Part shown: positions 10,767 through 40,428 of the stretch, piece after piece
How positions within the stretch are numbered: the stretch's first letter is position 1
How the letters are laid out: the number at the start of each line of letters is the position of its first letter
Source of the DNA: Williamsia serinedens
GTDB taxonomy: Bacteria; Actinomycetota; Actinomycetes; Mycobacteriales; Mycobacteriaceae
Reading direction: 5' to 3'
DNA length: 64,000 nt
Assembly (NCBI RefSeq): GCF_024171725.1
Contig: NZ_JAMTCG010000002.1
Coordinates: forward strand, 124,001-188,000
Program-made: the position numbers and the translations under genes
The notes under the pieces: model-generated
Told to the model about the DNA's origin: nothing
Seen by the model: the letters and a program-made list of their open reading frames with translations, nothing else
The model's database searches: none

Positions 10767-10923
10767 TCGTCTACTCCTGGTGGCCGTCAATGCGGTCAAG
10801 CGGCCGACGGGCGGGACTCCCCGTCCGCCGACACGCCGCAGTGTCTGTTTGTCCAGGTTACCGGTCGGGTGCGGGCCCGATCCACACGGGTGAGCGATCG
10901 CACGCTCGGGTGCGCGGCCGGTG

Positions 10924-11280
10924 TCAGTCGAGCCGACCGACGTGGGTGCGTATCCACTCGCCGGTCGCGCCGTCGAGCGTGTGGGTCTCGACGGCGCCGT
11001 CGCCGTGGACCTCGGTGATCGCGTCGACGCGACCGTCGTGATCGGTGTCGGTGTAGACGGTCATGCCGTCGGGTCCGACGCGGGTGAGCGAGTCGGCCAC
11101 GCCGTCGGCGTCGGTGTCGGTCTCGGCGGGACCCAGGTCCCAGATGCGGTCGCCGTCGGCCATCCAGAGATGGTCGTGGGCATCGGGCAGGGGTGTGACG
11201 ACGTGGGCGGCGACCTCGACCACGGGGTCGCCGTGGTCGTCGGGGTCGCCGGATCCGTCGAGATGGGTGTGGACGTCCAT
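10924..11280 (-). CDS. small Asp-rich protein with DxDxDG repeats
   Basis: This 118-residue protein has no signal peptide or membrane segment. Two calcium-binding-like loops are visible: DTDADGVAD near residue 60 and DTDHDGRVD near residue 80, resembling thrombospondin type-3 or dockerin-like repeats. It is histidine- and aspartate-rich at the N-terminus. Its start abuts the end of the upstream membrane P-loop gene, so it is the third gene of a minus-strand operon leading towards pckA. I do not recognise a function. Confidence 0.6.
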
Positions 11281-13366: not shown

Positions 13367-13386
13367 CCACTCCCCTCTCTGACACC

Positions 13387-14184: not shown

Positions 14185-14864
14185 GCGGGAACCCGAACGT
14201 CGCACAGACCATCTCCGGCTCCAGTACCGCACGCCGGGTGCTGCTGGTGTGGGACGCACCGAATCTCGACATGGGGCTCGGCGCGATCCTCGGCGGACGC
14301 CCGACCGCCGCCCACCGCCCCCGTTTCGACGCCCTCGGCCGGTGGCTGCTCGGCGAGACGGCTGAGATCTCGCGCACACTCCCCGACGACGAGCACGACG
14401 TCGAACCCGAGGCGACGGTGTTCACCAACATCGCCCCGGGCAGCGCCGAGGTGGTCCGCCCCTGGGTCGAGGCGCTGCGCAACGTCGGCTTCGCCGTCTT
14501 CGCGAAGCCCAAGCTCACCGAGGACTCCGACGTCGACGCCGACATGCTCGACCACATCGAGTTGCGTCGACACACCGTCGGGCTGGCGGGGTTGTACGTC
14601 GCCTCGGCGGACGGGCAGGCATTCCGTACCCTGGCCGAGGACGTCGCCGCCGAGGGCGTGCCGGTGACGGTGCTGGGGTTCCGGGAACACGCGAGTTGGG
14701 CGGTCACCTCCGAGGTGATCTCCTTCGTGGACCTGGAGGACATAGCGGGGGTCTTCCGCGAGCCGTTGCCGCGGATCAATCTCGACTCGCTGCCGGACGA
14801 GGGCGCCTGGCTCGCCCCGTTCCGACCGCTGTCCGCGCTGCTCAGCGGCCGTAACCAGGGGTAG
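14181..14864 (+). CDS. NYN-domain protein (Rv0207c-like)
   Basis: The 227-residue protein fits the NYN (PIN-like) nuclease fold. The core begins VLLVWDAPNLDMGLG, where the Asp and Asn sit at the expected metal-binding strand; later acidic positions are DSDVDADMLDHIEL and ASADGQAF. It follows the family found between trmB and mmpL3 in mycolic-acid bacteria, annotated as a conserved protein without known substrate. The GTG start overlaps trmB's stop. Ribonuclease activity is predicted from the fold only. Confidence 0.8.
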   Translation: MSGNPNVAQTISGSSTARRVLLVWDAPNLDMGLGAILGGRPTAAHRPRFDALGRWLLGETAEISRTLPDDEHDVEPEATVFTNIAPGSAEVVRPWVEALRNVGFAVFAKPKLTEDSDVDADMLDHIELRRHTVGLAGLYVASADGQAFRTLAEDVAAEGVPVTVLGFREHASWAVTSEVISFVDLEDIAGVFREPLPRINLDSLPDEGAWLAPFRPLSALLSGRNQG

Positions 14865-14923
14865 ACGTGCACCGGTGGGACAATCGGTGCGATCGATCCG
14901 ACCGACGAGAGAGGACGTGAGCG

Positions 14924-17914
14924 GTGTTCGGAGCCATCGGCACCTTCGTCTACCGACTTCGCTTCGCCGTCATCGCCGTCCTGATCGTGGTGATGGGTGG
15001 ACTCGGGCTGTACGGACTGGGGCTCGGGAAGAACCTCAGTCAGAGCGGCTTCTTCGACGACGGCTCGCAGTCGGTGAAGGGCTCCCAGCTCGCCGACTCG
15101 ACCTTCGGCCGTGACCACAAGTCCGACATCGTCCTGCTGATCACCCCACCGGCCGGGACCACGGTCGACAACGCGCAGTTCGGGGCCAAGGTCGAGAACT
15201 TCGTCGACGCGCTCATCACCGCGCATCCGACCATCGTCAACCGCGACGACCCCGGCATCATCGACCCGTTCGCCCCGGCCACCGGGCCCGCGGCCCTGGC
15301 CGCGCAGTCGCAGATCCGCGCGCAGACGTTCGACGCGTCGAAGCAACACGCGTTCATCTCGATCGGCGTCAAGGGCGACGACGACACGACGATCCTGAAC
15401 AACTTCAAGACGATCGAACCGTTCTTCGACAACATCGCCGGACGGTTCGACCTACAGGGCACGACGTTCCAACTCGCCGGCCTGCAACCGGTGGCCAGCG
15501 CCATCTCCAACGGCGTCGCGAAGGACACCTCCCGCGCCGAACTCGTGGCGCTGCCACTCGTGGCCGTGATGCTGTTCTTCATCTTCGGTGGCGTCGTCGC
15601 CGCCGTGCTGCCGGTCATCATCGGTGGCCTCACCATCGCCGGCGCCACCGGCATCCTCAACGGCCTGACGCAGGTCACCGAGGTCAACTTCTTCGCCCAG
15701 CCGGTCATCTCGCTCATCGGCCTCGGCATCGCCATCGACTACGGCCTGTTCATCGTCAGCCGGTTCCGAGAAGAGCTCGCCGAGGGCTATCCACCACCGC
15801 TCGCGGTGAAACGCACGGTGATGACCGCGGGCCAGACCGTCGTCTTCTCCGCGACGATCATCATCGCCGCGCTGGCCTGCGTGCTCATCTACCCACAGGG
15901 CTTCCTCAAGTCGGTCGCCTACGGCGCCATCTGCGCCGTCGGACTCGCGGCCCTGCTGTCCATCACCGTCCTGCCGGCGATCCTGGCCATCCTGGGACGC
16001 CGGATCGACGCGCTCGGCTTCAAGTTCTTGCGGCGCACGAAGCCGAAGAAGGAGATCGAGAACGGGCCGTGGGGTCGTCTCGCGGGCTGGGTCATGCGCC
16101 ACCCGCTGAAGACGGCCATCCCGACGGTCCTGCTGCTGCTCGTGCTGATCGTCCCGTTCAGCAACATCTCGTTCGGTGGCATCACCGAGAAGTACCTGCC
16201 GCCGGACAACGCGTTCCGCACCGCGCAGGAGGACTTCGACCGCATCTTCCCGACGCAGCGGACCGAGGAGATCAAGCTCGTCGTCCGCTACGACGAGAAC
16301 AGCTCGTCCGACGGCGCGAAGCTGCAGCAGATCGCGAACGAGGCCAACAAGATCCCCGGCTTCACCAAGCCGTTCAGCCTCGACTCCAGCCAGGGTGCGC
16401 TCACCGGCACCATCCCGAACACGTCGACCGGTGTGGTCCAGATGTCGGCCGGCCTGGTCAACCGCGACCTCACCGCCGACGCGGTGAAGGCGTTGCGCGG
16501 CATCGACACCCAGGGCCTGACGATGTACGTCGCCGGTACGCCCGCGCTGACACAGGACTCCATCGACACCCTGCTCGACGACCTCCCGCTGATGGCCGTC
16601 CTGCTGATCGTCGTGACGTTCCTGCTGATGTTCCTGCAGTTCGGGTCGGTGGTGTTGCCCATCAAGGCAGCGCTGATGTCGGCGCTGGGCCTGGGGTCCA
16701 CGCTGGGCGTCCTGACCTGGATCTTCATCGACGGCCACGGCGCCGGGCTGTTCAACTTCACGCCCGGACCGCTCATGTCGGCGGTGCTCGTGCTGATCAT
16801 CGCGATCATCTATGGCCTGTCCACCGACTACGAGGTGTTCCTGTTGTCCCGCATGGTGGAGGCGCGACAGCAGGGCGCGACGACGACCGAGGCGATCCGC
16901 AGCGGCACCGCCCACACCGGTCGCATCATCACCGCGGCCGCGGCCATCCTCGTGGTGGTCGTCGGTGCCTTCGGCTTCTCCGAGATCGTGATGATGAAGT
17001 ACATCGCGTTCGGCATCATCGCCGCGCTCATCCTCGACGCCACCGTCATCCGCATGCTGCTCGTGCCGGCCGTCATGAAGCTCCTCGGCGACGACTGCTG
17101 GTGGGCGCCGCGCTGGATGCAGACCGTCCAGCGCAAGATCGGCCTCGGCGAGACGGTGCTCGAGGACGAGCCCGGCCGGATCGTCGCCCCGGGTGCGCCG
17201 CGCGACGCGGGCACCGTCGTGTCGCAGGTCCCGACGACCGCACTCGCCACCGCGGGCGGTCGTCCCCCGGTGCGGGGACCCGTGCGCCGGCCGGACGGTC
17301 CCGACGCACCCCGTCGCGCCGAACCCGCCCGTGTCGATCCCGCGAGGGTCGGCCCCGTCGTCGGCGACCGACGCGGCGCCCCGCGTCCCGAGCCCGGGCG
17401 ACCGGCCGGCCCGCCGGACGCCCGCCCCGCCGCACGACCTGCCCCGCGTCCCGAGCCGCGTCGGGAACCCACCCGCGCACAGGACGACTCGGGGCGACGC
17501 CCACCACCGCCGCCGGACAGCGGACCCCTCGCCCCGCGGGGTGTCGGCCGCCCGCACCGGTCGCCCGTCGGCGGGTCACGACCGGCGCCCTCCGGGTCGT
17601 CGTCGCGTCCCGACACCGGCGGCTGGAGCCTCGGCGACAGCGGGATCCGGCTGAACAGCGCGATCCGTGACGAGCCCGCTCCCGCCCGTACCGGCAACGG
17701 CGCGAGTCCGAACGGGGCGGCTCCTCGCGGGTCGGCGTCGAACGGCGCGCCACGCCCTGCGTCGCCGCCCCCGCCGCGACGTCCCGAGCCGGCCGCCCCG
17801 CGTCCCGAGGCCCGCGACGACGGCGGACGACGCCACAAGCGCGAGGGCGAGAGCCAGATCAGCGTGCAGGAACTGCTGCGCCGCCGCGCTGGCCGCGACG
17901 GCGATCAGGGCTGA
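14924..17914 (+). CDS. mmpL3: MmpL3-type trehalose monomycolate flippase (RND)
   Basis: MmpL3 moves trehalose monomycolate across the inner membrane, an essential step in mycolic-acid envelope assembly. The 996-residue protein has the two RND halves with paired Asp-Tyr proton-relay motifs: GIAIDYGLFIVSRFREE in helix 4 and GLSTDYEVFLLSRM in helix 10. Two periplasmic porter loops lie between helices 1-2 and 7-8. After the last helix (near residue 735) comes a disordered Pro/Arg tail of about 250 residues ending in SVQELLRRRAG, close to the SAQDLLRR ending I recall for the tubercle bacillus protein. The GTG start follows GAGAGGAC. Confidence 0.95.
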   Translation: MFGAIGTFVYRLRFAVIAVLIVVMGGLGLYGLGLGKNLSQSGFFDDGSQSVKGSQLADSTFGRDHKSDIVLLITPPAGTTVDNAQFGAKVENFVDALITAHPTIVNRDDPGIIDPFAPATGPAALAAQSQIRAQTFDASKQHAFISIGVKGDDDTTILNNFKTIEPFFDNIAGRFDLQGTTFQLAGLQPVASAISNGVAKDTSRAELVALPLVAVMLFFIFGGVVAAVLPVIIGGLTIAGATGILNGLTQVTEVNFFAQPVISLIGLGIAIDYGLFIVSRFREELAEGYPPPLAVKRTVMTAGQTVVFSATIIIAALACVLIYPQGFLKSVAYGAICAVGLAALLSITVLPAILAILGRRIDALGFKFLRRTKPKKEIENGPWGRLAGWVMRHPLKTAIPTVLLLLVLIVPFSNISFGGITEKYLPPDNAFRTAQEDFDRIFPTQRTEEIKLVVRYDENSSSDGAKLQQIANEANKIPGFTKPFSLDSSQGALTGTIPNTSTGVVQMSAGLVNRDLTADAVKALRGIDTQGLTMYVAGTPALTQDSIDTLLDDLPLMAVLLIVVTFLLMFLQFGSVVLPIKAALMSALGLGSTLGVLTWIFIDGHGAGLFNFTPGPLMSAVLVLIIAIIYGLSTDYEVFLLSRMVEARQQGATTTEAIRSGTAHTGRIITAAAAILVVVVGAFGFSEIVMMKYIAFGIIAALILDATVIRMLLVPAVMKLLGDDCWWAPRWMQTVQRKIGLGETVLEDEPGRIVAPGAPRDAGTVVSQVPTTALATAGGRPPVRGPVRRPDGPDAPRRAEPARVDPARVGPVVGDRRGAPRPEPGRPAGPPDARPAARPAPRPEPRREPTRAQDDSGRRPPPPPDSGPLAPRGVGRPHRSPVGGSRPAPSGSSSRPDTGGWSLGDSGIRLNSAIRDEPAPARTGNGASPNGAAPRGSASNGAPRPASPPPPRRPEPAAPRPEARDDGGRRHKREGESQISVQELLRRRAGRDGDQG

Positions 17915-29409: not shown

Positions 29410-31395
29410 GTGAGTGCACCCACCGACACCGACCGTCCCTCCGGCATCGACCTCCAGTGGGTCGACTCGGGGGTCCGCGCCCAGGACGACCTCTACGCGC
29501 ACGTCAACGGCGTGTGGATCGCCGAGCACGAGATCCCCGCCGACCGGCCCATCGACGGCTCGTTCCTCACGCTGCGCGACCGCGCCGAGGAGGACGTCCG
29601 TGACATCGTCGTCGAGTGCGCCGGCGCGGACGCCGCGCCCGGTTCCGACACGCAGCGCATCGGGGACCTCTACACCTCCTTCATGGACACCGACCGGATC
29701 GAGTCGCTCGGTCTCGACCCGATCCGTGCCGATCTCGACCGCGTCGCCGGCATCACCTCGACCGAGGAGCTCGCCGAGGTGATCGGCGAGCTGCAGCGTC
29801 GCGGGTCGGGCGGGGCGATCGGCTTCTACGTCGACACCGACTCGAAGAAGTCCGATCGCTACCTGGTGCACCTCGGACAGTCGGGGATCGGCCTGCCCGA
29901 CGAGTCGTATTACCGGGAGGACAAGCACGCCGAGACCCGCAGCGGATACGTCGCGCACATCGAGCGCATGTTCACCCTCGTCGGGTTCGACGACGCGGCC
30001 ACCCGCGCGGCGACCGTGCTCGACCTCGAGACCGCCCTCGCCTCGCACCACTGGGACGTCGTCAAGCGCCGCGACGCCGACCTCACCTACAACCTCCTCA
30101 CCCACGAAGAGCTGGCCTCGTCCGCCGGGGCCTTCGACGTCGCCGCGTGGCTGCGCGGTCTGGGTGTCATCGACGACGCGGTGTTCGCCGAGGTGGTGGT
30201 GCGCCAGCCGTCGTTCGTGGAGGGTCTCGGCGCACTCGTCGCCGACCGCCCGCTGACCGACTGGATCGCCTGGCTGCAGTGGCGCCTGGTCCACTCCGCG
30301 GCGCCCTACCTGACGTCGGCGATCGTCGACGAGAACTTCGCCTTCTACGGCCGCACGCTGTCCGGGACGCCGGAGATCCGCGAGCGGTGGAAGCGTGGCG
30401 TCGGCCTCGTGGAGGCGGCGGTCGGCTTCGCCGTCGGGAAGCTCTACGTCGAGCGGCATTTCCCGCCCGCCGCCAAGGCCCGCATGGACGAGCTGATCGC
30501 GAACCTCGTCGAGGCCTACCGCCGCAACATCAGCGACCTCGACTGGATGAGTCCGGCCACCCGCGAGAAGGCGCTGGCCAAGCTCGACAAGTTCACCCCC
30601 AAGATCGGGTACCCGGCGCGCTGGCGCGACTACTCCGGACTCGAGATCCGGCCCGACGACCTCGTCGGGAACGTCGCCCGGGCGTCGGCGTTCGAGCAGG
30701 ACCGCGAGTTCGCCAAGATCGGCGGCCCGGTCGACCGCGACGAGTGGTTCATGACCCCGCAGACCGTCAACGCCTACTACAACCCCGGGATGAACGAGAT
30801 CGTCTTCCCGGCTGCGATCCTGCAGCCGCCGTTCTTCGACCCCGAGGCCGACGACGCCGCCAACTACGGTGGCATCGGCGCGGTGATCGGGCACGAGATC
30901 GGTCACGGCTTCGACGACCAGGGCGCCAAGTACGACGGCGACGGCAACCTCGTCGACTGGTGGACCGACGACGACCGCACCGAGTTCGGCAAGCGCACCC
31001 GCTCGCTGATCGACCAGTACGACACCTTCACCCCGACCGGCCTGGACCCGTCGCACACGGTCAACGGCGAGTTCACCATCGGCGAGAACATCGGCGACCT
31101 CGGTGGTCTGTCGATCTCGCTCGCCGCGTACCGGATCGCCACCGAGGGCACCGAACCGCCCGTGGTCGACGGGCTGACCGGTCTGCAGCGCGTGTTCTTC
31201 GGCTGGGCACAGGTGTGGCGGACCAAGACCCGGGAGGCCGAGGCGATCCGACGGCTCTCCATCGACCCGCACTCGCCGCCGGAGTTCCGCTGCAACGGCG
31301 TCGTCCGCAACATCGACGCCTTCTACGAGGCGTTCGACGTGTCCGAGGGCGACGAGTTGTACCTCGAGCCGGGACAGCGCGTCCGGATCTGGTGA
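29410..31395 (+). CDS. zmp1: M13 family zinc metallopeptidase (Zmp1/PepO-like)
   Basis: This 661-residue neprilysin-family peptidase has the zinc site HEIGH (in VIGHEIGHGFDDQG) and the third ligand Glu in GENIGDLGG; NAYYNPGMNEIVFPA is the substrate-cleft block. It has no signal peptide. From memory it matches Zmp1 (Rv0198c) along its whole length, including WFMTPQTVNAYY and PHSPPEFRCNGVVRN. Zmp1 acts on small peptides and affects host inflammasome signalling in pathogens; here the natural role is open. The start is set by the leaderless pattern; ATG at 29401 would add three residues. Confidence 0.95.
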   Translation: MSAPTDTDRPSGIDLQWVDSGVRAQDDLYAHVNGVWIAEHEIPADRPIDGSFLTLRDRAEEDVRDIVVECAGADAAPGSDTQRIGDLYTSFMDTDRIESLGLDPIRADLDRVAGITSTEELAEVIGELQRRGSGGAIGFYVDTDSKKSDRYLVHLGQSGIGLPDESYYREDKHAETRSGYVAHIERMFTLVGFDDAATRAATVLDLETALASHHWDVVKRRDADLTYNLLTHEELASSAGAFDVAAWLRGLGVIDDAVFAEVVVRQPSFVEGLGALVADRPLTDWIAWLQWRLVHSAAPYLTSAIVDENFAFYGRTLSGTPEIRERWKRGVGLVEAAVGFAVGKLYVERHFPPAAKARMDELIANLVEAYRRNISDLDWMSPATREKALAKLDKFTPKIGYPARWRDYSGLEIRPDDLVGNVARASAFEQDREFAKIGGPVDRDEWFMTPQTVNAYYNPGMNEIVFPAAILQPPFFDPEADDAANYGGIGAVIGHEIGHGFDDQGAKYDGDGNLVDWWTDDDRTEFGKRTRSLIDQYDTFTPTGLDPSHTVNGEFTIGENIGDLGGLSISLAAYRIATEGTEPPVVDGLTGLQRVFFGWAQVWRTKTREAEAIRRLSIDPHSPPEFRCNGVVRNIDAFYEAFDVSEGDELYLEPGQRVRIW

Positions 31396-31419
31396 CCGCC
31401 CCGCTACGGTGAGTCCGAC

Positions 31420-31442
31420 CTCCCGCCCACACCGGGCGGGAG
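31420..31442. terminator. 9-bp stem-loop after zmp1
   Basis: CTCCCGCCC (31420-31428) pairs perfectly with GGGCGGGAG (31434-31442) around the loop ACACC, 25 bases after the zmp1 stop. There is no T-run after it. It may end the zmp1 transcript or lie at the 5' end of the next one, since TACGGT at 31405-31410 could be a -10. Confidence 0.45.
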
Positions 31443-31463
31443 CGGGAAGCGAGGTGGACCGCC

Positions 31464-31721
31464 ATGGCCGCAACAACGATCCTCGGGGCGTCGCTCGCCG
31501 TGGTCGGACCACTGCACTACGTGGCGCCCGAGAAGTTCGAGGCGTTCACCGCGACCGCGTTCCCCGACGACACCCGCACGTGGGTACTGCGACACGGCGC
31601 GATCGAGACGGCGCTCGGTGTCGGGCTCCTCGTCCCGGCCACCCGCACGCTCGCCCGCGTCGGACTGCTGGCCTACGGCGCCCACCTGGGACTCCACGCG
31701 TTCCGCACGCTCACGGCCTGA
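31464..31721 (+). CDS. small DoxX-like membrane protein
   Basis: The 85-residue protein has two to three hydrophobic segments, with RHGAIETALGVGLLVPATR in the middle and LLAYGAHLGLHAF at the end, reminiscent of short DoxX-family proteins. The start ATG follows GAAGCGAGG. No operon partner is obvious; zmp1 lies upstream and the ANTAR gene 160 bases downstream. Function unknown. Confidence 0.6.
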   Translation: MAATTILGASLAVVGPLHYVAPEKFEAFTATAFPDDTRTWVLRHGAIETALGVGLLVPATRTLARVGLLAYGAHLGLHAFRTLTA

Positions 31722-31882
31722 GTCGGCCGACCCCGGGCGACCGGGTGACGTCCAGGTTTGCCGGTCTCCCACCGCGCGTGCGGTATCGGGTGATTACAAT
31801 CCTGCCACCGACATCTAGACCACAGGTGTCCGCTGGTGGGCCCGAGCGGCCCAGACGTCGAGCGGTGAAGGAAGCTGCTGCG

Positions 31883-31939
31883 ATGAACGACCTGACACGT
31901 CCCGTCCCCGACACCCCCGTCGCCGCGGTGCGCGCATGA
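31883..31939 (+). CDS. 18-residue upstream ORF coupled to the ANTAR gene
   Basis: ATG at 31883 is preceded by GAAGGAAG with 8 nt spacing, the best ribosome site in this intergenic region. The ORF encodes MNDLTRPVPDTPVAAVRA and its TGA overlaps the next ATG (ATGA at 31936). The downstream gene has no comparable ribosome site of its own, so its translation may depend on this ORF. TACAAT at 31795-31800 is a possible -10, giving a leader of about 75 nt. Confidence 0.5.
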   Translation: MNDLTRPVPDTPVAAVRA

Positions 31940-32688
31940 CGACACCGTCGGACGGTTCCGTCGACTCCTCGTCGGACCTGCTCGACCACGGTTCGGACAC
32001 CGCGCCCACGTTGGCGAACCTGTCGACCCAGATGGCCGAACTGGCCCGTCGCCTGCGGTCGGAGAGCCGCGACACCGAGACGATCCTGCGGGCGATCAGT
32101 GCGGCGGCGGTCGAGTCCATCCCGCACGCCGAGTACGCGAGCATCACCCTGGTCGAGGGGTCGTCCTCCATCACCAGCCCTGTGCTCATCGGGGACCTCG
32201 CCGCCGAGTCCGACCGGCTGCAGGCCGAGCTGCAGGAGGGCCCCTGCGTCACCTCGGCACTCCAGGCCGACACGATCGTCATCGACGACATGCTCGACGA
32301 CGACCGGTGGCCGCGCTTCAGCAACGCCGCGGCCGAGCTCGGCATCCGGTCGATGCTGTGTTTCTGCCTGTACGTGGAGGGCAACAACTTCGGCGCCCTG
32401 AACCTGCACAGCACCCGTCCCCACGCCTTCGACGACGAGTCGCAGTCGATCGGCAGCCTGTTCGCCGCACACGCCGCGATCGCGTTCTCGTCGGTGCGGG
32501 AGAAGGAGCAGATCCGCTCGGCGCTGACCAACCGCGACATCATCGGTCAGGCCAAGGGCATGCTCATGGAGCGGTATTCGCTGAACGCCGACGACGCCTT
32601 CCAGCTGCTGGCCCGGCTGTCGCAGGACTCGAACACCAAGCTCGCCGACGTCGCGGCCCAGGTGGTGCAGGCCGGCCCGGGCGAGTAG
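31936..32688 (+). CDS. GAF-ANTAR domain RNA-binding antiterminator
   Basis: This 250-residue regulator has a GAF sensor domain (about residues 55-180, with GPCVTSALQ and FGALNLHS) and a C-terminal ANTAR domain (ALTNRDIIGQAKGMLMERY, then AFQLLARLSQDSNTKL). ANTAR proteins bind paired hairpins in nascent RNA and prevent termination. The GAF ligand is unknown. The gene is coupled to an 18-codon ORF upstream. Confidence 0.9.
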   Translation: MTTPSDGSVDSSSDLLDHGSDTAPTLANLSTQMAELARRLRSESRDTETILRAISAAAVESIPHAEYASITLVEGSSSITSPVLIGDLAAESDRLQAELQEGPCVTSALQADTIVIDDMLDDDRWPRFSNAAAELGIRSMLCFCLYVEGNNFGALNLHSTRPHAFDDESQSIGSLFAAHAAIAFSSVREKEQIRSALTNRDIIGQAKGMLMERYSLNADDAFQLLARLSQDSNTKLADVAAQVVQAGPGE

Positions 32689-32695
32689 CCCGCGC

Positions 32696-33553
32696 TCAGG
32701 CCCGCAGGAAGGCGAGAACCGTCGCCTCGAAGGCCTCCTTGGCCTCGATCATCACCCAGTGACCGCACCGCGGGAAGACGTGCAGCTGCGCGTCGGGGAT
32801 GAGACGCATGGGCACGAGCGCCATGTCGGGGGGACTGACGCGGTCGTCTCGGCCCCACGTCAGCAGCGTCGGGCACGACACCTTGTGCATCATCGCCCAA
32901 TAGGGCGGGGTGTCGGACGCGGCGAGGAACTGCTGCTGCATCGCGAAAGCCGCCGACCCGTACATCGTCTCGCCGGTCTTGCGGGCGTCCGGGTGCGTCG
33001 CCGCCTCCCAGCGCTCCTCGATCAACTCGTCGGTGACGAGCGACTTGTCGAACACCATCGAGCGCAACCAGCGGACCAGCCGATCGCGGTCGGGGTCGTC
33101 GGCGAACTCCTGCAGCAGTTGCAGGCCCTCGGTCGGCTGAGGGCTGAACAGGTTGGCGCCGACGCCGCCGATGGTCACCAGCTTGCTCACCAGCTCGGGC
33201 TTGCGGATCGCCAGGTTGACCCCGACGACGCCGCCCATGGAGTTGCCGATCACGGCGGCCGACGGGATCCCGAGTTCCTTCATGAACACGGTCACGGACT
33301 TCCCCGCGTCGAGCACCGGCATACCGCCCCAGGCGTCGCTGACGCCGAAGCCCGGGAACTCCAGGACGTAGGTGTGGAAGTGCTCGGCGAAGACGCCGAG
33401 GTTGCCGCGGTAGTTGCGCCACCCCGTCACGCCCGGGCCCGACCCGTGCAACAGGATCAGCGGCGGGGCGTCGGTCCCACCGGCCTCGTGATAGCGAAGT
33501 GTGCCCTTGTCGGTGACAAGTTCCCTGCGGGTGCCTTCGTAGGTGACGTCCAC
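32696..33553 (-). CDS. alpha/beta hydrolase, meta-cleavage-product hydrolase-like
   Basis: The 285-residue hydrolase resembles the C-C bond hydrolases BphD and HsaD: oxyanion region LLHGSGPGVTGWRNYRGN, nucleophile Ser in GNSMGG, acid Asp in GRDDRVSP and His in CGHWVMIE. Such enzymes cleave ring-opened products of aromatic or steroid breakdown. The GTG at 33553 lies 9 nt beyond a KstR-like palindrome that would overlap the promoter, consistent with control by a sterol or fatty-acid regulator. No dioxygenase genes are nearby, so the pathway is inferred only from family and operator. Confidence 0.85.
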   Translation of the reverse strand: MDVTYEGTRRELVTDKGTLRYHEAGGTDAPPLILLHGSGPGVTGWRNYRGNLGVFAEHFHTYVLEFPGFGVSDAWGGMPVLDAGKSVTVFMKELGIPSAAVIGNSMGGVVGVNLAIRKPELVSKLVTIGGVGANLFSPQPTEGLQLLQEFADDPDRDRLVRWLRSMVFDKSLVTDELIEERWEAATHPDARKTGETMYGSAAFAMQQQFLAASDTPPYWAMMHKVSCPTLLTWGRDDRVSPPDMALVPMRLIPDAQLHVFPRCGHWVMIEAKEAFEATVLAFLRA

Positions 33554-33562
33554 CCCGACAGA

Positions 33563-33578
33563 CTAGAACGTGTTCTAG
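33563..33578 (-). promoter_or_regulatory. KstR-like operator upstream of the hydrolase
   Basis: CTAGAACGTGTTCTAG is a palindrome with arms CTAGAAC and GTTCTAG around GT. It fits the published KstR half-site pattern TnnAACnnGTTnnA. On the minus strand the possible -10 TAGTCT begins within its last bases, 6 nt before the GTG, so a bound repressor would block transcription. Confidence 0.6.
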
Positions 33579-33610
33579 CCGGCCGGGGTGGACGGTCTCG
33601 ATCGGACGGG

Positions 33611-34426
33611 TCAGGGCTTGGCCTCGACCAGGTCCTCCTTGCCCTCGTCCTTGGCGAAGGACTTCTCGTCGGAGAACGACTTCAGACGGGCGATGCGGTA
33701 GATCAGCAGGCCGTACAGGCACTTGGCCAGGATGTCGGCGACCGAGTAGGCGCCCTGCTTGCTCACCCAGGCGACCGGTCCGTCGCCACCGATGACGGGC
33801 AGCAGATACGAGATCGGATAGACACCCCACGAGGCGAACAGCAGGATCCGCATGCGCGACACCGTCATCCGGACGGTCGGCGACTGACGGTCGAGCGAGC
33901 GGGTCAGCTCCACGAAGAGCACGTAGAGGATGTAGAGGAACGGGATGGTCGACAGCGTCCCCCAGATGAGGCGCGTGGTGGTGTCGCCGCTGATCTCGCC
34001 GGGGTACCCCAACGCGATCATCAACGCCGACGCCGGGATCAGGCGCCACAGCAGGGAGGCCTGCAGCTTGCGGGCGAGCGCCAGCACGACGACCAGCTCC
34101 ATCAGGAGCAGCGGCACCGTCAGGAGCCAGTCAACGTAGCGGTAGCCCTCGTTGAACGACTCCCCGATGGCCTGCTTGTACACACTCTCGCCGCCGGGCG
34201 CGTCGGAGACGAACGCCTTCTTGAACGAGTCGAAGATGCGGAAATAGTGGTACGCCGCGATGCCGCAGACGATCGCGGAGATCACGAGTGCCTGTCGATA
34301 CCGTTGCAGCACACGGGGTTGCGCTGCGAGCAGGAAGATCGCCGTGAACAACTGTGCGGCGATCGCCAGGGACAGCACGTTGTAGACGGTGTCGAACTGC
34401 CCCTTCGTCAATTCGTCGGGAATCAT
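33611..34426 (-). CDS. light-driven proton pump rhodopsin, xanthorhodopsin/Gloeobacter-rhodopsin type
   Basis: This 271-residue, seven-helix opsin has the retinal lysine K235 in helix G (VADILAKCLYG). The helix C triad is D99, T103 and E110 within RYVDWLLTVPLLLMEL, the DTE set of outward proton pumps, and H60 in helix B matches the histidine that pairs with the counterion in proteorhodopsin. L107 at the tuning site suggests green absorption. G156 (IWGTLSTIPF) takes the place of bacteriorhodopsin Trp138, the opening that lets xanthorhodopsin hold a carotenoid antenna. The ATG follows GAAAGG. The divergent blh gene would supply retinal. Confidence 0.93.
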   Translation of the reverse strand: MIPDELTKGQFDTVYNVLSLAIAAQLFTAIFLLAAQPRVLQRYRQALVISAIVCGIAAYHYFRIFDSFKKAFVSDAPGGESVYKQAIGESFNEGYRYVDWLLTVPLLLMELVVVLALARKLQASLLWRLIPASALMIALGYPGEISGDTTTRLIWGTLSTIPFLYILYVLFVELTRSLDRQSPTVRMTVSRMRILLFASWGVYPISYLLPVIGGDGPVAWVSKQGAYSVADILAKCLYGLLIYRIARLKSFSDEKSFAKDEGKEDLVEAKP

Positions 34427-34500
34427 GACACGACCTTTCTCGGTGTCGGGTGACTTGTCGTCCGCCGATGGCGAACGCCTGCCCTTCCTCACTGAACGCC

Positions 34501-34580
34501 GAGACCAGTAGTGGATCAACGGTGCGCGGACATCGGCGCGGAATCGTGACCAGTACTGGACATAGTGACCAATTCGTGAC
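34501..34580. promoter_or_regulatory. repeated sites between divergent rhodopsin and blh genes
   Basis: The 190-base divergent region holds GAGACCAGTAGTGGA (34501-34515), GTGACCAGTACTGGA (34546-34560) and GTGACCAATTCGTGAC (34565-34580). The second contains the perfect palindrome CCAGTACTGG. GTGACCA recurs 19 bases apart. This looks like a multi-site operator able to control both genes. The regulator is not in the window. Confidence 0.5.
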
Positions 34581-34603
34581 GCGACAACCCGGCGGCCGGC
34601 GCG

Positions 34604-34609
34604 GATACT
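34604..34609 (+). promoter_or_regulatory. -10 hexamer for leaderless blh
   Basis: GATACT is followed by 7 nt and the GTG at 34617, consistent with leaderless transcription. Confidence 0.45.
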
Positions 34610-34616
34610 GGCGACG

Positions 34617-35630
34617 GTGGTGACCACGAGAACTGTTGGCACCGTGCGGATCACGCCCGTCTCCGTCGTGTCCGGCACGGCGCTCGTGACGCGCGTGTCG
34701 CTCGCCGTCGGCGGGGCCGTCGCCGTCGTCGCCGACCGACTCGTGCCCGACCCGTCGCCGATCCTCTGGACGCTCGTCGGCCTGGGCATCGTGCTCGGGG
34801 TCCCGCACGGCGCCCTCGACCACCTCATCGCGGCACAGGTGGCCGGCGTCCGCCGGGTCACCGCCGCCGTCCTCTACGCCGGGCTCGCCGTCGCCGCGTG
34901 GGTCGCACTGCAGTGGGGTGGGCCCGTCCCCCTGGCGATCATGATCGTGGCGAGCATCGTGCACTTCGGCCTGGGCGAGGTCGAGGTGTCGTCGTTGTCG
35001 TTGCGCCGCAACCCGGTTCGGCAGATCGCCGTCATGCTCGCCGGAGCCGGATGTCTCATCCTCCCCCTGGCGCGGGGAGGTCCCGGCTGGGACGACACCC
35101 TGCACGCCCTCTCCCCGTCCCTGGCCGACGTCCTCGCCGTCGGTGCGGTTCGGTGGTCGCTCGTCGGGCTCTGGGTGGTCGGTGCCGCGGTCGTCGTCGC
35201 GCTGGCCGTGACAGAGCGGACCTGGTCGGCCGTCGCGGACGTCCTGGTCGTCGGCGCCGTCGGCGCACTCGTCGACCCGCTGACCGCGTTCGCGCTGTGG
35301 TTCGGGGTGTGGCACGGCCCGCGGCACATGGCGCGGTTGGTCGCCCGCGACGTCGAGCGGGGGGCGTCACCGTCCGGCGCGCTCCGATCGCTCGTGCGTC
35401 GCGCGGCGCCGGCAACCGCCGGGGCTGTCGTGACCCTCGGCGTCGTCGTCGGTGTCGTCCTCTCCGCGGGCTCGTCGTACGCGGCGGTCGCCGCCGCGTT
35501 GACGGTCCTGCTCGCACTGACCGCGCCTCACATGCTGGTCGTCGCCGCTCTCGACGCCTCGGCGCGCCGACGCGCCCGCGCGCCGATCGCTTCCCGGGGC
35601 GGGTCCATTTCGGCAGACTGGGACGGGTGA
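34617..35630 (+). CDS. blh: Brp/Blh-family beta-carotene 15,15'-dioxygenase
   Basis: Blh cleaves beta-carotene into two retinals, the chromophore of the neighbouring rhodopsin. The 337-residue membrane protein has about eight helices and the family's conserved histidines: GVPHGALDH near residue 63, IVHFGLGE near 118, VWHGPRHMARL near 240 and TAPHMLVV near the end. No carotene biosynthesis genes are in the window, so the precursor must come from elsewhere. The GTG start has a leaderless -10 7 nt upstream. The stop overlaps the next gene as GTGA. Confidence 0.88.
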   Translation: MVTTRTVGTVRITPVSVVSGTALVTRVSLAVGGAVAVVADRLVPDPSPILWTLVGLGIVLGVPHGALDHLIAAQVAGVRRVTAAVLYAGLAVAAWVALQWGGPVPLAIMIVASIVHFGLGEVEVSSLSLRRNPVRQIAVMLAGAGCLILPLARGGPGWDDTLHALSPSLADVLAVGAVRWSLVGLWVVGAAVVVALAVTERTWSAVADVLVVGAVGALVDPLTAFALWFGVWHGPRHMARLVARDVERGASPSGALRSLVRRAAPATAGAVVTLGVVVGVVLSAGSSYAAVAAALTVLLALTAPHMLVVAALDASARRRARAPIASRGGSISADWDG

Positions 35631-36211
35631 CCGATCCACCGTCCACGGTGACCCGACGGGCCCGACCGGACGAGCGCGTGCTCGTCGCGGACGTCCTCGC
35701 GCAGGCGTTCGTCGAGGATCCCGTCGTGCGGTGGATCTTCCGGGACGAGGACGCCGGCCGGTACTTCCGCGTGGCCGCCCGGCACGAGCACTGTTCCCCC
35801 GACGCCGCCGATCTCCGCGTCGAGGGCGATCGCGCCGTCGGCGCCGCGCTGTGGGACCCGCCGTCGTTCCGTCCGTCCCTGATCCACCGTGTCCTGCTGG
35901 TGCCCGCGCTGCTCACGGCGATGCGCCCGAGCGCCGCGGGGCGCGGCTCCATTGCGACGCGGCTGATGCAACAACACCGTCCGAAGCAACCACACTGGTA
36001 TCTCGCCCAGCTCGGGGCGATCGAACCGGGACGCGGACACGGGTCGGCGCTGCTGCAGTATCGACTGCCGTCGATCACCGGCCCGGCGTACCTCGAGAGC
36101 AGCAACGTCCGCAACGTCCCGCTCTACGAGCGCCACGGCTTCGTCGTCACCGGCGAGATGACCCTCCCCGACGACGGCCCCACCCTCTGGGCGATGTGGC
36201 GAGACGGCTGA
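35627..36211 (+). CDS. GNAT-family N-acetyltransferase
   Basis: The 194-residue protein has the GNAT acetyl-CoA loop near residue 125 (GAIEPGRGHGSALLQ) and the late strand/helix YLESSNVRNVPLYERHGF. Acceptor unknown. The GTG start overlaps blh's stop, so it can be translated from the blh message; CAGACT 7 nt upstream (35614-35619) could also drive it alone. A role in photobiology is not implied by its sequence. Confidence 0.85.
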   Translation: MTDPPSTVTRRARPDERVLVADVLAQAFVEDPVVRWIFRDEDAGRYFRVAARHEHCSPDAADLRVEGDRAVGAALWDPPSFRPSLIHRVLLVPALLTAMRPSAAGRGSIATRLMQQHRPKQPHWYLAQLGAIEPGRGHGSALLQYRLPSITGPAYLESSNVRNVPLYERHGFVVTGEMTLPDDGPTLWAMWRDG

Positions 36212-36228
36212 TCCGTGGTGGCCAGCCA

Positions 36229-36384
36229 GTGCCGACTGTGTGGAAACCGCCGTCGAGTGTGCTGGCGACCACGGTGCCGACTGTGTGGAAACCGCCGCCG
36301 AGTGTGCTGACGGCGCTTCGCGACACAACAGACGATCGACGCACACTCGGCGACGGGCTTCCGCACTGTCGGCGGCTCGAGAAC
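36229..36384. repeat. intergenic repeat cluster 1 (two direct units, one inverted)
   Basis: GCCGACTGTGTGGAAACCGC occurs at 36231 and again 45 bases later at 36276, each followed by GAGTGTGCTG. An inverted copy follows (GCACACTCGGCGACGG, then CCGCACTGTCGGCGGC). Bases 36274-36384 recur at 37943-38053 with five differences. The cluster lies between the convergent GNAT and monooxygenase genes. Confidence 0.8.
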
Positions 36385-36392
36385 GCGCGTGG

Positions 36393-37919
36393 TCAGCGGA
36401 TGGCAGACGCCTCGCGATCGGTCGCGCGGGTGAAGGTGTAGGCGTCGAGATCGAAACGTCGACTGGTCCACATGGTCTCGAGGGTCGTCGACGGCCGGAA
36501 CGGGACGTCGCCGTGCTCGTCGAAGTAGTAGCTGTTCGCCGAGCCGCACCCACCGGCGAAGAACACCTGGTTGTCGCGACGGGCCAGCATCGCGCGCATG
36601 TAGTCGTCGTTCGCATGCTCGGACACCTCGACGCGGGTGGCGCCCACCGACCGTGCGCGCTGCAGACACCGGACGATGTGCCGGCTCTGGGTCTCGATGA
36701 GGTTGAAGTAGGACGACCCGTTGTAGGCGTACGGGCCGAGGATCGAGAAGAGGTTCGGGAACCCGGGCACGCTGACGCCGTGGAACGCCTGTAGGCGGTT
36801 CTCGGACCAGAACGCCTCGAGATCCCGGCCGGCGACACCGCGGACGTCGAAGGGTGGCATGTTGCCCCGTTCGAAGACCTTGAACCCGGTGGCGAGCACC
36901 AGCACGTCGCACTCGTGCAGGGTGCCGTCGGCGGTGCGGATGCCGTCCGCCTCGACACGATCGATGGACGACGTCTCAAGGGACACGTTCGGGCGGTTGA
37001 ACGTCGGGAGGTACGCGTTGGAGAAGCTCGGTCGTTTGCACCCCATCGCGTAGCGCGGCGTCAGCTTGTCGCGCGTCACCGGGTCGGTCACCGTGCGCTT
37101 CAGGTACGCGCGCGCCACCTTCTCGCCGCCGGCCGCGATGGGCACGACGCCGTGGAAGTGGGCGGGCAGAGGGAAGTTCACCTCGACGAATGCCTGCGAC
37201 AGGGTCCGAGCGAGACGCCTGGCACCGGGAATCCGCGACAGCACGGTTTGCACGACGCCGGGGATCGGCGCGTCGGGCTTGGGCATGCACCAGATGGGTG
37301 TGCGCTGGAAGACGGTGAGGTGCTCGGCGACCTTCGCGATCTCCGGGATCGCCTGCACCGCGGACGCTCCCGTGCCGATCACCGCGACCCGCCGACCCCG
37401 CAGGTCGATCGCGTGGTCCCAGCGGGCGGTGTGGAGCACCTCGCCGGCGAAGTCGTCGAGCCCTGCTATGTCGGGACGCTTGGGCTGGGTGAGAACACCG
37501 GTCGCGCTGACGACGTGGCGCGCGGTGATCGAGTCCCCGTCGCCGGTGGTCAGCGTCCAGAGATCGGCGGCCTCGTCGAACTCGGCGCCGACGATGCGTG
37601 TGTTCAGTCGGGTGTGGTCGGTGACGCGGAAGCGCTGCGCCACGTCGTCGGCGTATGCCTTCAGCTCGCGACCCGGCGCATAGATGCGGGACCAGTCGGT
37701 GCGCTGGTCGAAGGAGAACTGGTAACTGAACGACGGGATGTCGACACCGACCCCGGGATAGGTGTTCCAGTGCCACGCCCCGCCGAGCCCGTCACCGTCC
37801 TCGACGAGGAGGTAGTCGGAGAACCCGGCCCGGTCGAGGAGGATCGCTGCGCCGATGCCGGAGAACCCACCCCCGACGATGACGATCTCGTGGTCGGGGG
37901 TCGTGGCGGTGCCATCCAT
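36393..37919 (-). CDS. flavin-containing / Baeyer-Villiger-type monooxygenase
   Basis: The 508-residue FAD enzyme has an N-terminal FAD Rossmann loop (GGGFSGIGAA), an NADPH loop (GTGASAVQ) and the Baeyer-Villiger fingerprint FxGxxxHxxxW(D) as FAGEVLHTARWD near residue 165. It would insert oxygen next to a ketone or oxidise N or S; the substrate is not predictable. The ATG at 37919 overlaps an alternative ATG at 37915 in another frame. Near-identical 111-bp repeats flank the gene in direct orientation, which could have helped it move or duplicate. Confidence 0.88.
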   Translation of the reverse strand: MDGTATTPDHEIVIVGGGFSGIGAAILLDRAGFSDYLLVEDGDGLGGAWHWNTYPGVGVDIPSFSYQFSFDQRTDWSRIYAPGRELKAYADDVAQRFRVTDHTRLNTRIVGAEFDEAADLWTLTTGDGDSITARHVVSATGVLTQPKRPDIAGLDDFAGEVLHTARWDHAIDLRGRRVAVIGTGASAVQAIPEIAKVAEHLTVFQRTPIWCMPKPDAPIPGVVQTVLSRIPGARRLARTLSQAFVEVNFPLPAHFHGVVPIAAGGEKVARAYLKRTVTDPVTRDKLTPRYAMGCKRPSFSNAYLPTFNRPNVSLETSSIDRVEADGIRTADGTLHECDVLVLATGFKVFERGNMPPFDVRGVAGRDLEAFWSENRLQAFHGVSVPGFPNLFSILGPYAYNGSSYFNLIETQSRHIVRCLQRARSVGATRVEVSEHANDDYMRAMLARRDNQVFFAGGCGSANSYYFDEHGDVPFRPSTTLETMWTSRRFDLDAYTFTRATDREASAIR

Positions 37920-37942
37920 GGATGACAGTGTCCCTGACTGCG

Positions 37943-38173
37943 GTGCCGACTGTGTGGAAACCGTCGCCGAGTGTGCTGACGGCGCCTCGCGACACGACAG
38001 ACGAACGACGCACACTCGGCGACGGGCTTCCGCACTGTCGGCGGCTCCAGAACACAGGCCATGGGCACAAGCCGCTGACAGGGCGGAAACGCCACATCGA
38101 GTGTGCGCAGCCGCCAACAGATCTCACCCCTCGCTGCGAGCACACTCGACGGTCGTTTCCACCCAGTCAGCAC
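37943..38173. repeat. intergenic repeat cluster 2 (direct, inverted, direct, inverted)
   Basis: Together with the terminator this occupies nearly all of the 334-base gap between the monooxygenase start and the fadB end. The first half (37943-38053) is the 111-bp copy of cluster 1. The second half has more diverged units: GCGGAAACGCCACATCGAGTG near 38082, then the inverted form CACACTCGACGGTCGTTTCC near 38141. Each direct/inverted pair can fold back on itself. Confidence 0.8.
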
Positions 38174-38196
38174 TGCGGTTGCGCTCAACAGTCAGA

Positions 38197-38229
38197 AGCG
38201 GCCCGGCTCCCATCGGGAACCGGGCCGCT
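38197..38229 (-). terminator. strong hairpin downstream of fadB
   Basis: AGCGGCCCGG (38197-38206) pairs with CCGGGCCGCT (38220-38229), with an inner 4-bp stem TCCC/GGGA. It begins 24 bases after the fadB stop. On the minus strand it is followed by TTCTGACTG, only weakly T-rich, a common form in high-GC actinobacteria. Confidence 0.65.
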
Positions 38230-38253
38230 CAGCTGGTCTGAGGTCAGCTCAGA

Positions 38254-40428
38254 TCAGTACTTCTCACCCTTCGCGGCCTTGTCGACCAGCGACTGCGGCG
38301 GCTCGAAGTGCTTGCCGTACTTCGACGCCAGGTCGCGGGCGCGGTCGACGAAGCCCTGCAGGCCACCCTCGTACTGGTTGATGTACTGCACGACACCACC
38401 GGTCCACGCCGGGAAGCCGATCCCGAAGATGGAGCCGATGTTGGCGTCGGGCACCGAGGTGATGACGCCCTCGTCGAAGCACTTCACCGTCTCCAGGGCC
38501 TCGGCGAAGAGCATGCGCTCCACCATGTCCTGGAACGGGATCTGCGTGCTGCCCGACTTGTACTGGTCACGCAGGCCCTGCCAGAGACCGGCACGCTTGC
38601 CGTTCTCGTCGTACTCGTAGAAGCCCTTGCCGGCGGTCTTGCCGTCACGGCCCTGCTCGAGCAGCCAGTCGACGACCGCGAACGACCCGTGGTCGGGGTA
38701 GTCCTTGCCCTCGGCCTTCGCCGCGGCAGCGGTCTCGTTGCGGATCTTCTGCATCAGGCCGAGCTTCAGCTCGTCCGAGAGCTGCAGCGGCGCAGCGGGG
38801 TAGCCGGCCTGCTGACCGGCCTGCTCGATGAACGCCGGCTCGACACCCTCACCGACAGCGGCGATCGCCTCGTTGATGAACGTGCCGATGACACGCGAGG
38901 TGAAGAAGCCGCGGCTGTCGTTGACGACGATCGGGGTCTTCTTGATCGCGAGGGTGTAGTCGATGACCTTCGCCAGCACCGCATCCGAGGTCTTGGCGCC
39001 GCGGATGATCTCCACCAGCGGCATCTTGTCGACCGGCGAGAAGAAGTGGATGCCGATGAAGTCGTCGGCCCGCTTCACGCCCTCGGCGAGCGAGGTGATC
39101 GGCAGGGTCGAGGTGTTCGAACCCAGGACCGCGTCGGGCTCGACGATGTCCTCGATCTCCTGGAACACCTTGTGCTTCACCTCGACCGACTCGAACGCGG
39201 CCTCGATGACGAGGTCGACCCCGGCGAAGTCCTGCGGGTCGACGGTCGGGTGGATGCGCGCGAGCAGCTCGTCGGACTTCTCCTGCGTGGTCTTGCCCCG
39301 CTTGAGCGCCTTCTCCTCGAGCTTCTCCGAGTAGTTCTTGCCGCGCTTGGCCGCCTCGATGTCGATGTCCTTGAGGACGACGTCCATCCCGGCCTTGGCC
39401 GAGACGTACGCGATGGCCGCACCCATCATGCCGGCGCCGATGACGCCGACCTTCTTGGCGGTGTACTTGTCGTAGCCCTCGGGACGCGAACCGCCACCGT
39501 TGATGTGCTGCAGGTCGAAGAAGAACGCCTTGATCATGTTCTGCGCGACCTGACCGGTCACCAGCGACACGAAGTAGCGGGTCTCGATCTGCGTGGCGGT
39601 GTCGATGTCGACCATCGCGCCCTCGACGGCGGCCGCGAGGATCGCGCGCGGCGCGGGCATCGGGGCACCCTTGAGCTGACGACGCAGGATGGCCGGCATG
39701 GCCGGGAGGAACTGCGCGACAGCGGGACTCGACGGCGAGCCGCCGGGGATCTTGTAGCCCTTCTCGTCCCACGGCTGCACGGCCTCGGGGTTCTCGGCGA
39801 GCCACTTCTTCGCGGCGGGGAGGAGCTCCTCCACCGATCCGACGACCTCGTGGATCAGGCCGGTCTCCAGGGCCTGGGCCGGCTTCATCCGCGGGCCCTG
39901 CAGCAGCACGTTCATCAGGGCGTTCTGGATGCCCAGCAGGCGCACGGTGCGGGCGACGCCGCCACCACCGGGGAGCAGACCGAGGGTGACCTCGGGCAGG
40001 CCGATCGAGGCACCCTTCACGTCGGCGGCGATGCGGTGCTGCGTGGCGAGGGTCAGCTCGAGACCGCCGCCGAGCGCCGCGCCGTTGATGGCCGAGACGA
40101 CAGGCTTGCCGAAGGTCTCCAGCCGGCGCAGGTACGACTTCAGCTCGTTGGTGCGGTTGGTGATCTCGGTCGCGATCTCGACCTTGTCCTTGTCACCGCG
40201 GCCGCTGGTCATGTCCTTGAGGTCGCCGCCGGCGAAGAAGGTCTTCTTCGCGGAGGTGAGCACGACACCGGTGATGTCGTCCTTCTCGGCCTCGAGGCGC
40301 TCGACGGTGGCCTTGAGCGAGCTCTGGAAGAGGTCGTTCATGGTGTTGGCGCCCTGGTTGGGGTCGTCCATGGTGAGTACGACGACGCCGTCGGCGTCCT
40401 TCTCCCACGCGATCATGTTGTCACTCAT
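38254..40428 (-). CDS. fadB: fatty-acid oxidation trifunctional-type subunit: enoyl-CoA hydratase / 3-hydroxyacyl-CoA dehydrogenase
   Basis: This 724-residue fusion carries out hydration and NAD-dependent oxidation in beta-oxidation. The N-terminal crotonase domain keeps both catalytic glutamates (GGGLELTL and GLPEVTLGLLPGGGG); the dehydrogenase domain starts with GAGMMGAAIAY, then HFFSPVDKMPLVEII and the GFFTSRV block. It resembles mycobacterial FadB (Rv0860). It lies 31 nt after fadA with AGGAGA upstream of the ATG, so they form one operon and probably one complex. Confidence 0.95.
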   Translation of the reverse strand: MSDNMIAWEKDADGVVVLTMDDPNQGANTMNDLFQSSLKATVERLEAEKDDITGVVLTSAKKTFFAGGDLKDMTSGRGDKDKVEIATEITNRTNELKSYLRRLETFGKPVVSAINGAALGGGLELTLATQHRIAADVKGASIGLPEVTLGLLPGGGGVARTVRLLGIQNALMNVLLQGPRMKPAQALETGLIHEVVGSVEELLPAAKKWLAENPEAVQPWDEKGYKIPGGSPSSPAVAQFLPAMPAILRRQLKGAPMPAPRAILAAAVEGAMVDIDTATQIETRYFVSLVTGQVAQNMIKAFFFDLQHINGGGSRPEGYDKYTAKKVGVIGAGMMGAAIAYVSAKAGMDVVLKDIDIEAAKRGKNYSEKLEEKALKRGKTTQEKSDELLARIHPTVDPQDFAGVDLVIEAAFESVEVKHKVFQEIEDIVEPDAVLGSNTSTLPITSLAEGVKRADDFIGIHFFSPVDKMPLVEIIRGAKTSDAVLAKVIDYTLAIKKTPIVVNDSRGFFTSRVIGTFINEAIAAVGEGVEPAFIEQAGQQAGYPAAPLQLSDELKLGLMQKIRNETAAAAKAEGKDYPDHGSFAVVDWLLEQGRDGKTAGKGFYEYDENGKRAGLWQGLRDQYKSGSTQIPFQDMVERMLFAEALETVKCFDEGVITSVPDANIGSIFGIGFPAWTGGVVQYINQYEGGLQGFVDRARDLASKYGKHFEPPQSLVDKAAKGEKY

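Follow-up and report, generated by a model that had tools for sequence, protein, structure and literature searches.

The locus considered here raises a simple question: does a mycolic-acid bacterium carry a light-driven proton pump together with the enzyme that makes its retinal, and if so, how would the pair be used and controlled? The DNA analysed, called the window throughout, is a stretch of 64,000 nucleotides from Williamsia serinedens, a member of a genus that makes mycolic acids. An opsin gene and a blh gene lie head to head in it, on contig C2 of genome G000, as follows.

33611-34426, minus strand: opsin coding sequence, 271 amino acids, ATG at 34426-34424, supported by a PF01036 match, key residues, tree and predicted structure.
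34617-35630, plus strand: blh, Blh/Brp-type beta-carotene 15,15'-dioxygenase, the predicted source of retinal (PF15461, TIGR03753).
34427-34616, no strand: divergent opsin/blh intergenic region of 190 bp, with two predicted elements and GTGA repeats.

From the comparisons reported below, we conclude that this pair very probably makes a working retinal-protein proton pump. The opsin matches the Bac_rhodopsin family (PF01036) with an E-value of 1.8e-42 and 145.8 bits, against a cut-off of 24.6, and family searches found opsin and blh each in single copy in the 4.64-Mb genome. The open reading frame reaches upstream to 34861, which would give a protein of 416 amino acids; this start was rejected because homology to relatives begins at the ATG at 34426, the remainder being an upstream extension only. 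The original prediction had assigned to this protein the proton-pump residues D99-T103-E110, together with H60 and K235, and all were found at these positions in an alignment of 93 distinct rows (88 opsins from the loci collected, plus 5 chains of known structure). D99, T103, L107, E110, D231 and K235 are invariant in the 93 rows, including the five solved relatives nearest by sequence (9hfk, 6nwd, 9wfa, 3ddl and 7ytb), and H60 is kept in 91. An AlphaFold model computed from 22 aligned opsins has seven long helices, with a mean predicted local distance difference test score (pLDDT) of 86.5 and a predicted template modelling score (pTM) of 0.84. Its top Foldseek matches are psXR (9wfa), Gloeobacter rhodopsin (GR, 6nwd) and the actinorhodopsin of Rhodoluna lacicola (9hfk), to which the opsin is 54% identical.

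As to retinal, a divergent blh gene had also been predicted, and is indeed transcribed away from the opsin gene at a distance of 190 bp. That the organism has its own retinal-forming enzyme holds as a prediction, the Blh protein being above the cut-offs of both PF15461 (E 1.8e-31, 110.2 bits versus 28) and TIGR03753 (119.2 bits versus 95.25). We infer that Blh forms retinal from beta-carotene, for which the genome encodes a route: polyprenyl diphosphate synthase, phytoene synthase, CrtI and a CrtL-type cyclase. Compared with the Williamsia relative G004, the ratio of nonsynonymous to synonymous substitution (dN/dS) comes to about 0.15 in the opsin and 0.40 in blh. Judged by this ratio the opsin is under purifying selection, and both genes look maintained because of these values.

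Outward proton pumping, by homology to known pumps only, is the best reading of the opsin. In the mechanism that we propose, Blh would cleave beta-carotene to retinal, and the retinal would be bound to K235 through a Schiff base. Under light a proton would then move outward: D99, partnered by H60, would accept it and act as counter-ion, E110 would be the cytoplasmic donor, and the pumped protons would add to the proton motive force of a heterotroph. Several observations count against a working pump with a role in its host. The CrtL-type cyclase is over the Pfam cut-off but below the NCBIfam one (183 versus 209.5), and neither a sigma-70-like promoter nor a terminator was found in 33400-36400. 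Moreover, a rhodopsin is present in 4 of 8 Williamsia genomes, the copy of G007 being of another type (34% identity, without H60), and the window type in only 3 of the 8, which makes the opsin dispensable in Williamsia.

The original prediction had proposed to place the opsin in a phylogeny with actinorhodopsins, xanthorhodopsins and Gloeobacter rhodopsin, and this was done with a quick maximum-likelihood tree that has no bootstrap and carries a long-branch warning. The opsins of the window and of Williamsia G004 form a pair (support 99), and both fall inside an 87-row clade that contains 9hfk (Shimodaira-Hasegawa-like approximate likelihood-ratio test (SH-aLRT) 99), is almost wholly actinobacterial by record title, and stands apart from GR/psXR and from SrXR/Kin4B8. 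Within it, 9hfk splits off outside the other 86 rows; the window gene therefore belongs to the sister part of the clade, and the exact place of 9hfk is unsure because its branch is long. The 23 rows labelled as mycolate bacteria do not group together: the starred branches require 3 changes or more, and the tree as drawn shows 8.

A second line of evidence is P131, located within helix 119-145 of the AlphaFold model. It is present in 87 of the 93 rows, 9hfk included, and absent from GR, psXR, SrXR, Kin4B8 and two type-2 opsins; the four xanthorhodopsin/GR structures have F, L, V and V at this position of helix D. According to a paper on the Aquiluna actinorhodopsin, actinorhodopsins (ActR) are told apart from xanthorhodopsins (XR) by a proline halfway along helix D (PMC8113403). 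Because it has P131 and shares the clade of 9hfk, the window opsin is, by sequence criteria, an actinorhodopsin, and a xanthorhodopsin or Gloeobacter-type assignment is ruled out by the same tree position and residue. With the actinorhodopsins RlActR of Rhodoluna lacicola (9hfk) and ActR-13023 of Candidatus Aquiluna (PMC8113403), it has in common the DTE motif, the retinal lysine, the helix-D proline and the antenna glycine; it differs in its host, Williamsia, and in being only 54% identical to 9hfk. The xanthorhodopsin family (Salinibacter SrXR, 3ddl; Kin4B8, 7ytb/8i2z; Gloeobacter rhodopsin, 6nwd; psXR, 9wfa) has the same fold, DTE motif, histidine partner and antenna glycine, but lacks the helix-D proline, and the window opsin falls outside it in the tree.

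A second, distant type of rhodopsin was also encountered, at L004 (G007, 1480-2235) and L095 (G018). These proteins are 31-34% identical to the window opsin and have the DTE triad and the lysine, with Ala at the position of H60 and no helix-D proline. Blh adjoins the L004 gene.

The antenna glycine deserves a separate comment. G156 of the opsin aligns with Gly156 of SrXR and Gly153 of Kin4B8, and is Gly in 89 of the 93 rows. In the two xanthorhodopsins this residue opens an antenna pocket beside the retinal ring (PMC13093654); Gly145 of ActR-13023 is lined up with XR Gly156 (PMC8113403). One actinorhodopsin is also credited with such a glycine-made antenna space. G156 may likewise leave space by the retinal ring, where xanthorhodopsin seats its carotenoid antenna, and a second chromophore is possible. 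As for the pigment, the genome further encodes a CruF-like protein (PF04240), a CrtD-like protein and a CrtO-like ketolase match of 243 bits, far below the cut-off of 1000. A CrtO-like match of 243-267 bits occurs in all 8 Williamsia genomes, 4 of them without rhodopsin, each time below the cut-off, and the same search matches 12 of 14 control genomes, none over it. A 4-keto carotenoid in the host is thus conceivable, and a carotenoid antenna on the window opsin possible. We do not claim one, because the ketolase match occurs whether or not a genome has an opsin, because Kin4B8 takes up keto carotenoids, yet energy transfer from them is poor (PMC13093654), and because the pumping rate of ActR-13023 fell with added salinixanthin (PMC8113403). 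The idea that the carotenoid set was acquired together with the opsin was left as weak, since each of the 8 Williamsia genomes has the CrtO-like match, with or without an opsin. In the remaining 4 of the 93 rows, actinorhodopsins of Ornithinimicrobium and Nesterenkonia (L032, L037, L040 and L072), the pocket looks closed, because Phe stands at the glycine position.

How would the two genes be controlled? Opsin and blh are read outward from the 190-bp region, in which two copies of a dyad element are predicted.

34489-34514, minus strand: predicted regulator-binding element facing opsin, dyad TGAAC-N5-GACCA at 34493-34507, 62 bp upstream of the opsin start.
34550-34575, plus strand: second predicted copy, facing blh, dyad TGGAC-N5-GACCA at 34557-34571, 41 bp upstream of the blh start.

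The element was found with a 26-bp weight matrix (first matrix) built on the sequences upstream of opsin at seven other loci, each with a divergent TetR-family gene (L005-L008, L013, L028 and L029). Over the 64-kb window this matrix scored best at 34489-34514 (17.5) and second at 34550-34575 (16.5), the best score outside the intergenic region being 8.9. None of 2000 mononucleotide shuffles of the intergenic region reached the best score, in the window and likewise in G004, where one copy also faces each gene (24.0 and 21.0). The opsin-facing element, 34489-34514, is the sole match without mismatch to CACTANTGNNCNNNNNGTTCA in the genome. Among 29 opsin upstream regions outside the training set, 3 (L023, L089 and L026) scored above 16 bits and 26 below 11.5; these 3 are exactly those with an adjacent TetR gene, although the count is not an independent one, because L023 and L089 are close kin of training loci. 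The plain dyad TGRWC-N5-GWYCA is not specific, occurring 8 times in the window, twice within the intergenic region, and the claim of an element therefore rests on the weight matrices.

Three (C/A)GTGA repeats were also noticed at 34545, 34564 and 34575 (span 34545-34581), overlapping the blh-facing element. Their steps of 19 and 11 bp, counted by eye, are the same in Williamsia G004 though the sequence between them has changed. A regulator of the CRP or LitR/CarH kind was considered for these repeats and set aside: the 11- and 19-bp spacings occur in only 2 of 24 upstream regions, and attention was therefore given to the dyad common with the TetR loci.

The TetR gene is divergent from opsin in 7 of 19 loci compared with the window (the seven used for the first matrix), and a wider look found it adjacent in 12 distinct opsin loci, adding L009, L023, L026, L027 and L089. 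TetR_N (PF00440) was over its cut-off in the three opsin-adjacent proteins and the one Williamsia protein scanned, and the binding helix GYSKTTLY is identical in 11 of 13 aligned TetR proteins, with one change in each of the other two. Each of the 8 Williamsia genomes has a clear orthologue (identity 49-57%, E-values from 3e-51 to 5e-63, the next TetR reaching 3e-11). In G000 it lies on another contig than the opsin, next to genes that recall sunscreen synthesis.

C7:53025-53570: TetR orthologue of G000, on a contig other than that of the opsin.
L136 (G000:C7:44000-63500), 9023-15795: TetR gene divergent from a mycosporine-like operon, outside the window.

Opposite the TetR gene, beyond its upstream region, G000 encodes a HAD phosphatase, a dehydroquinate-synthase-like protein, an O-methyltransferase, an ATP-grasp protein, a D-Ala-D-Ala-ligase-like protein and a TauD-type dioxygenase. 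In all 7 other Williamsia loci matches are present to five of these frames, namely HAD, dehydroquinate-synthase-like, methyltransferase, ATP-grasp and TauD. The dehydroquinate-synthase-like protein matches 5tpr at 572 bits and the next chain at 276; 5tpr is named 3-dehydroquinate synthase in the table, and we take it to be desmethyl-4-deoxygadusol synthase. Together these genes resemble a cluster for mycosporine-like amino acids. Cluster amir_4256-4259 of Actinosynnema mirum presumably consists of dehydroquinate-synthase-like, O-methyltransferase, ATP-grasp and D-Ala-D-Ala-ligase-like genes, and G000 has four such genes in a row, outside the window and only as the proposed second target of the regulator. 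The Actinosynnema genes are presented as a four-gene actinobacterial mycosporine-like cluster in a review (PMC10384724).

Two results connect this locus to the opsin. The best match of the first matrix lies just upstream of the TetR gene, within a strongly conserved block, in 8 of 8 Williamsia genomes (17.5-19.5 kb searched); these are not eight independent events, because the Williamsia loci are close kin. Reciprocally, a second matrix was built solely from the 8 Williamsia TetR-sunscreen regions, and had its top match in the opsin-TetR intergenic region of 12 of 12 distinct TetR-adjacent opsin loci, 10 with scores of 16-32, L026 with 11.0 and L027 with 24.9, while the best score in the other 22 loci tested was 14.7. 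This test was not blind, because the first matrix had already indicated the block when it was chosen. The top match also fell at the opsin region in G004 (15.6 versus 11.1) and, barely, in the window (10.5 versus 9.8).

The TetR-family regulator encoded beside the mycosporine-like sunscreen genes thus probably binds the opsin/blh dyad and, going by its family and the dyad, is most likely a repressor, which would set the expression of opsin and blh. A light-exposure regulon in Williamsia, in which one TetR-family repressor controls its own gene and the mycosporine-like operon, and the actinorhodopsin and retinal synthase at a second locus, is to our mind an evenly balanced proposition. If it is true, visible-light capture and ultraviolet protection would be switched together. 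Mycobacteria and Rhodococcus have this regulator encoded directly beside the opsin. The modules of Mycolicibacterium, Mycobacterium and Rhodococcus (L005, L006, L008 and L028) have an opsin 75-78% identical to that of the window, an adjacent Blh and the same element; there, however, TetR is adjacent and opsin and blh are in tandem, whereas the window has a divergent blh, with the TetR orthologue encoded on the other contig, beside the sunscreen-like genes. The shared element and its regulator, which like G156 had not figured in the original prediction, would offer a handle on the control of rhodopsin expression in these actinobacteria. No literature linking TetR, mycosporines and rhodopsin was seen among the matches listed.

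Alternatively, the element may be merely a conserved promoter or the site of another factor, its link to TetR and to the sunscreen genes being a coincidence of gene order. We regard this as quite possible, though not as our expectation. The element was found by footprinting only, and several results weigh against the regulon: Williamsia CHRR-6 (G006) has an opsin and the TetR gene, and no element was found at its opsin region; genome-wide matches with at most 2 mismatches are at background level (33, versus 42 for the reversed control); the reciprocal margin in the window is the small one given above, and in L006 a second-matrix site outside the intergenic region reaches 19.4; and no site above 8 was found with the first matrix at the carotenoid loci L105, L106 and L123. 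Against this alternative, the element has dyad symmetry in the manner of a TetR operator, it picks out, among the non-training regions, precisely those with an adjacent TetR gene (two being close kin of training loci), and the Williamsia-derived matrix recovers it at all 12 TetR-adjacent loci.

The upstream element, by tying the opsin to a regulator beside sunscreen-like genes, also bears on a different reading, namely that the opsin is mainly a light sensor, or pumps mainly for signalling, for example by switching genes for sunscreen or pigment. It also counts in favour of this reading that an opsin of the pump type can, in principle, signal with no transducer of its own. We nevertheless consider it improbable, since every pump residue is kept, including the donor E110, no transducer gene was seen beside the opsin in the window, and the only neighbours common to more than 4 of the 19 opsin loci plus the window are blh and, in a subset, TetR.

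There remains the matter of how such a pair is distributed. A scan of contigs with the opsin matched at least 592 stretches, at least 558 of which encode relatives; the best 80 were retained. Genera among the matches listed include Mycolicibacterium, Mycobacterium, Rhodococcus, Pseudonocardia, Nocardioides, Arthrobacter and Cryobacterium, and the best 80 of the at least 592 stretches include relatives 75-78% identical, with an adjacent Blh, from several Mycolicibacterium, Mycobacterium and Rhodococcus genomes. The host's family was sampled with 401 genomes, taken out of a larger group; a rhodopsin was matched in 13 of them and was over the cut-off in 11; Blh was found in 10, all of them among these 11, so that it occurs only ever with a rhodopsin in this sample. 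We conclude that the rhodopsin trait in mycolate bacteria is patchy but real, and that the retinal enzyme travels with the rhodopsin. The earlier claim that rhodopsins are uncommon in mycolic-acid bacteria is therefore upheld as to rarity (11 of 401 over the cut-off) but weakened as to novelty, given the close relatives with Blh in the three genera just named; the opsin is ordinary as a protein and uncommon as to its host. What the window adds is a complete pair of opsin and retinal synthase in a lineage of mycolic-acid bacteria with few rhodopsins. In the part of the literature covered, no paper on rhodopsin in Williamsia, Mycolicibacterium or mycobacteria was found, judging by titles and the beginnings of abstracts; PMC12422013 and PMC2889829 are among the papers so judged. 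Plasmid records held 3 opsin matches, all below 60% identity, and no match to the TetR protein at 1e-25.

That rhodopsins are so patchily distributed (in 11 of the 401 family genomes and in 4 of the 8 Williamsia genomes) might suggest that the pair is a decaying or silent acquisition without a present role, but this is very improbable in view of the dN/dS values and intact frames, a G+C content at third codon positions (GC3) of 0.92 for opsin and 0.91 for blh, close to the 0.93 of the neighbouring hydrolase gene, and the retention of Blh in 10 of 11 rhodopsin genomes.

Some individual genomes depart from the general pattern. Rhodococcus sp. ARC_M5 (G248; L060/L088/L116) is the sole rhodopsin genome of the 11 without a Blh match, and Rhodococcus sp. 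IEGM 1381 (G241) combines two rhodopsins with a single Blh. Metagenome assemblies labelled Bifidobacterium breve (L010, L012 and L027) contain opsins 74-77% identical to that of the window, one of them (L027) with the TetR gene and the element as well; these labels look wrong.

On the other side of the opsin gene lies a hydrolase gene.

32696-33553, minus strand: alpha/beta hydrolase (PF00561, E 3.3e-26), 57 bp downstream of opsin.

The hydrolase resembles HsaD below the cut-off (NF045632, 267 bits versus 400), and it adjoins the opsin in G004 too. Its co-transcription with opsin is possible; its function is probably unrelated. No Rfam family matched over its gathering score in 31000-40000. 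Beyond blh, a frame at 35627-36211, whose GTG overlaps the blh stop codon, has a weak likeness to GNAT acetyltransferases (E 5.3e-4, below the cut-off), and is probably not part of the opsin system, because it has no match in the G004 locus. Finally, a GAF-ANTAR protein, possibly an RNA-binding antiterminator, is encoded at 31936-32688, two genes from opsin, and is present at the G004 locus as well.

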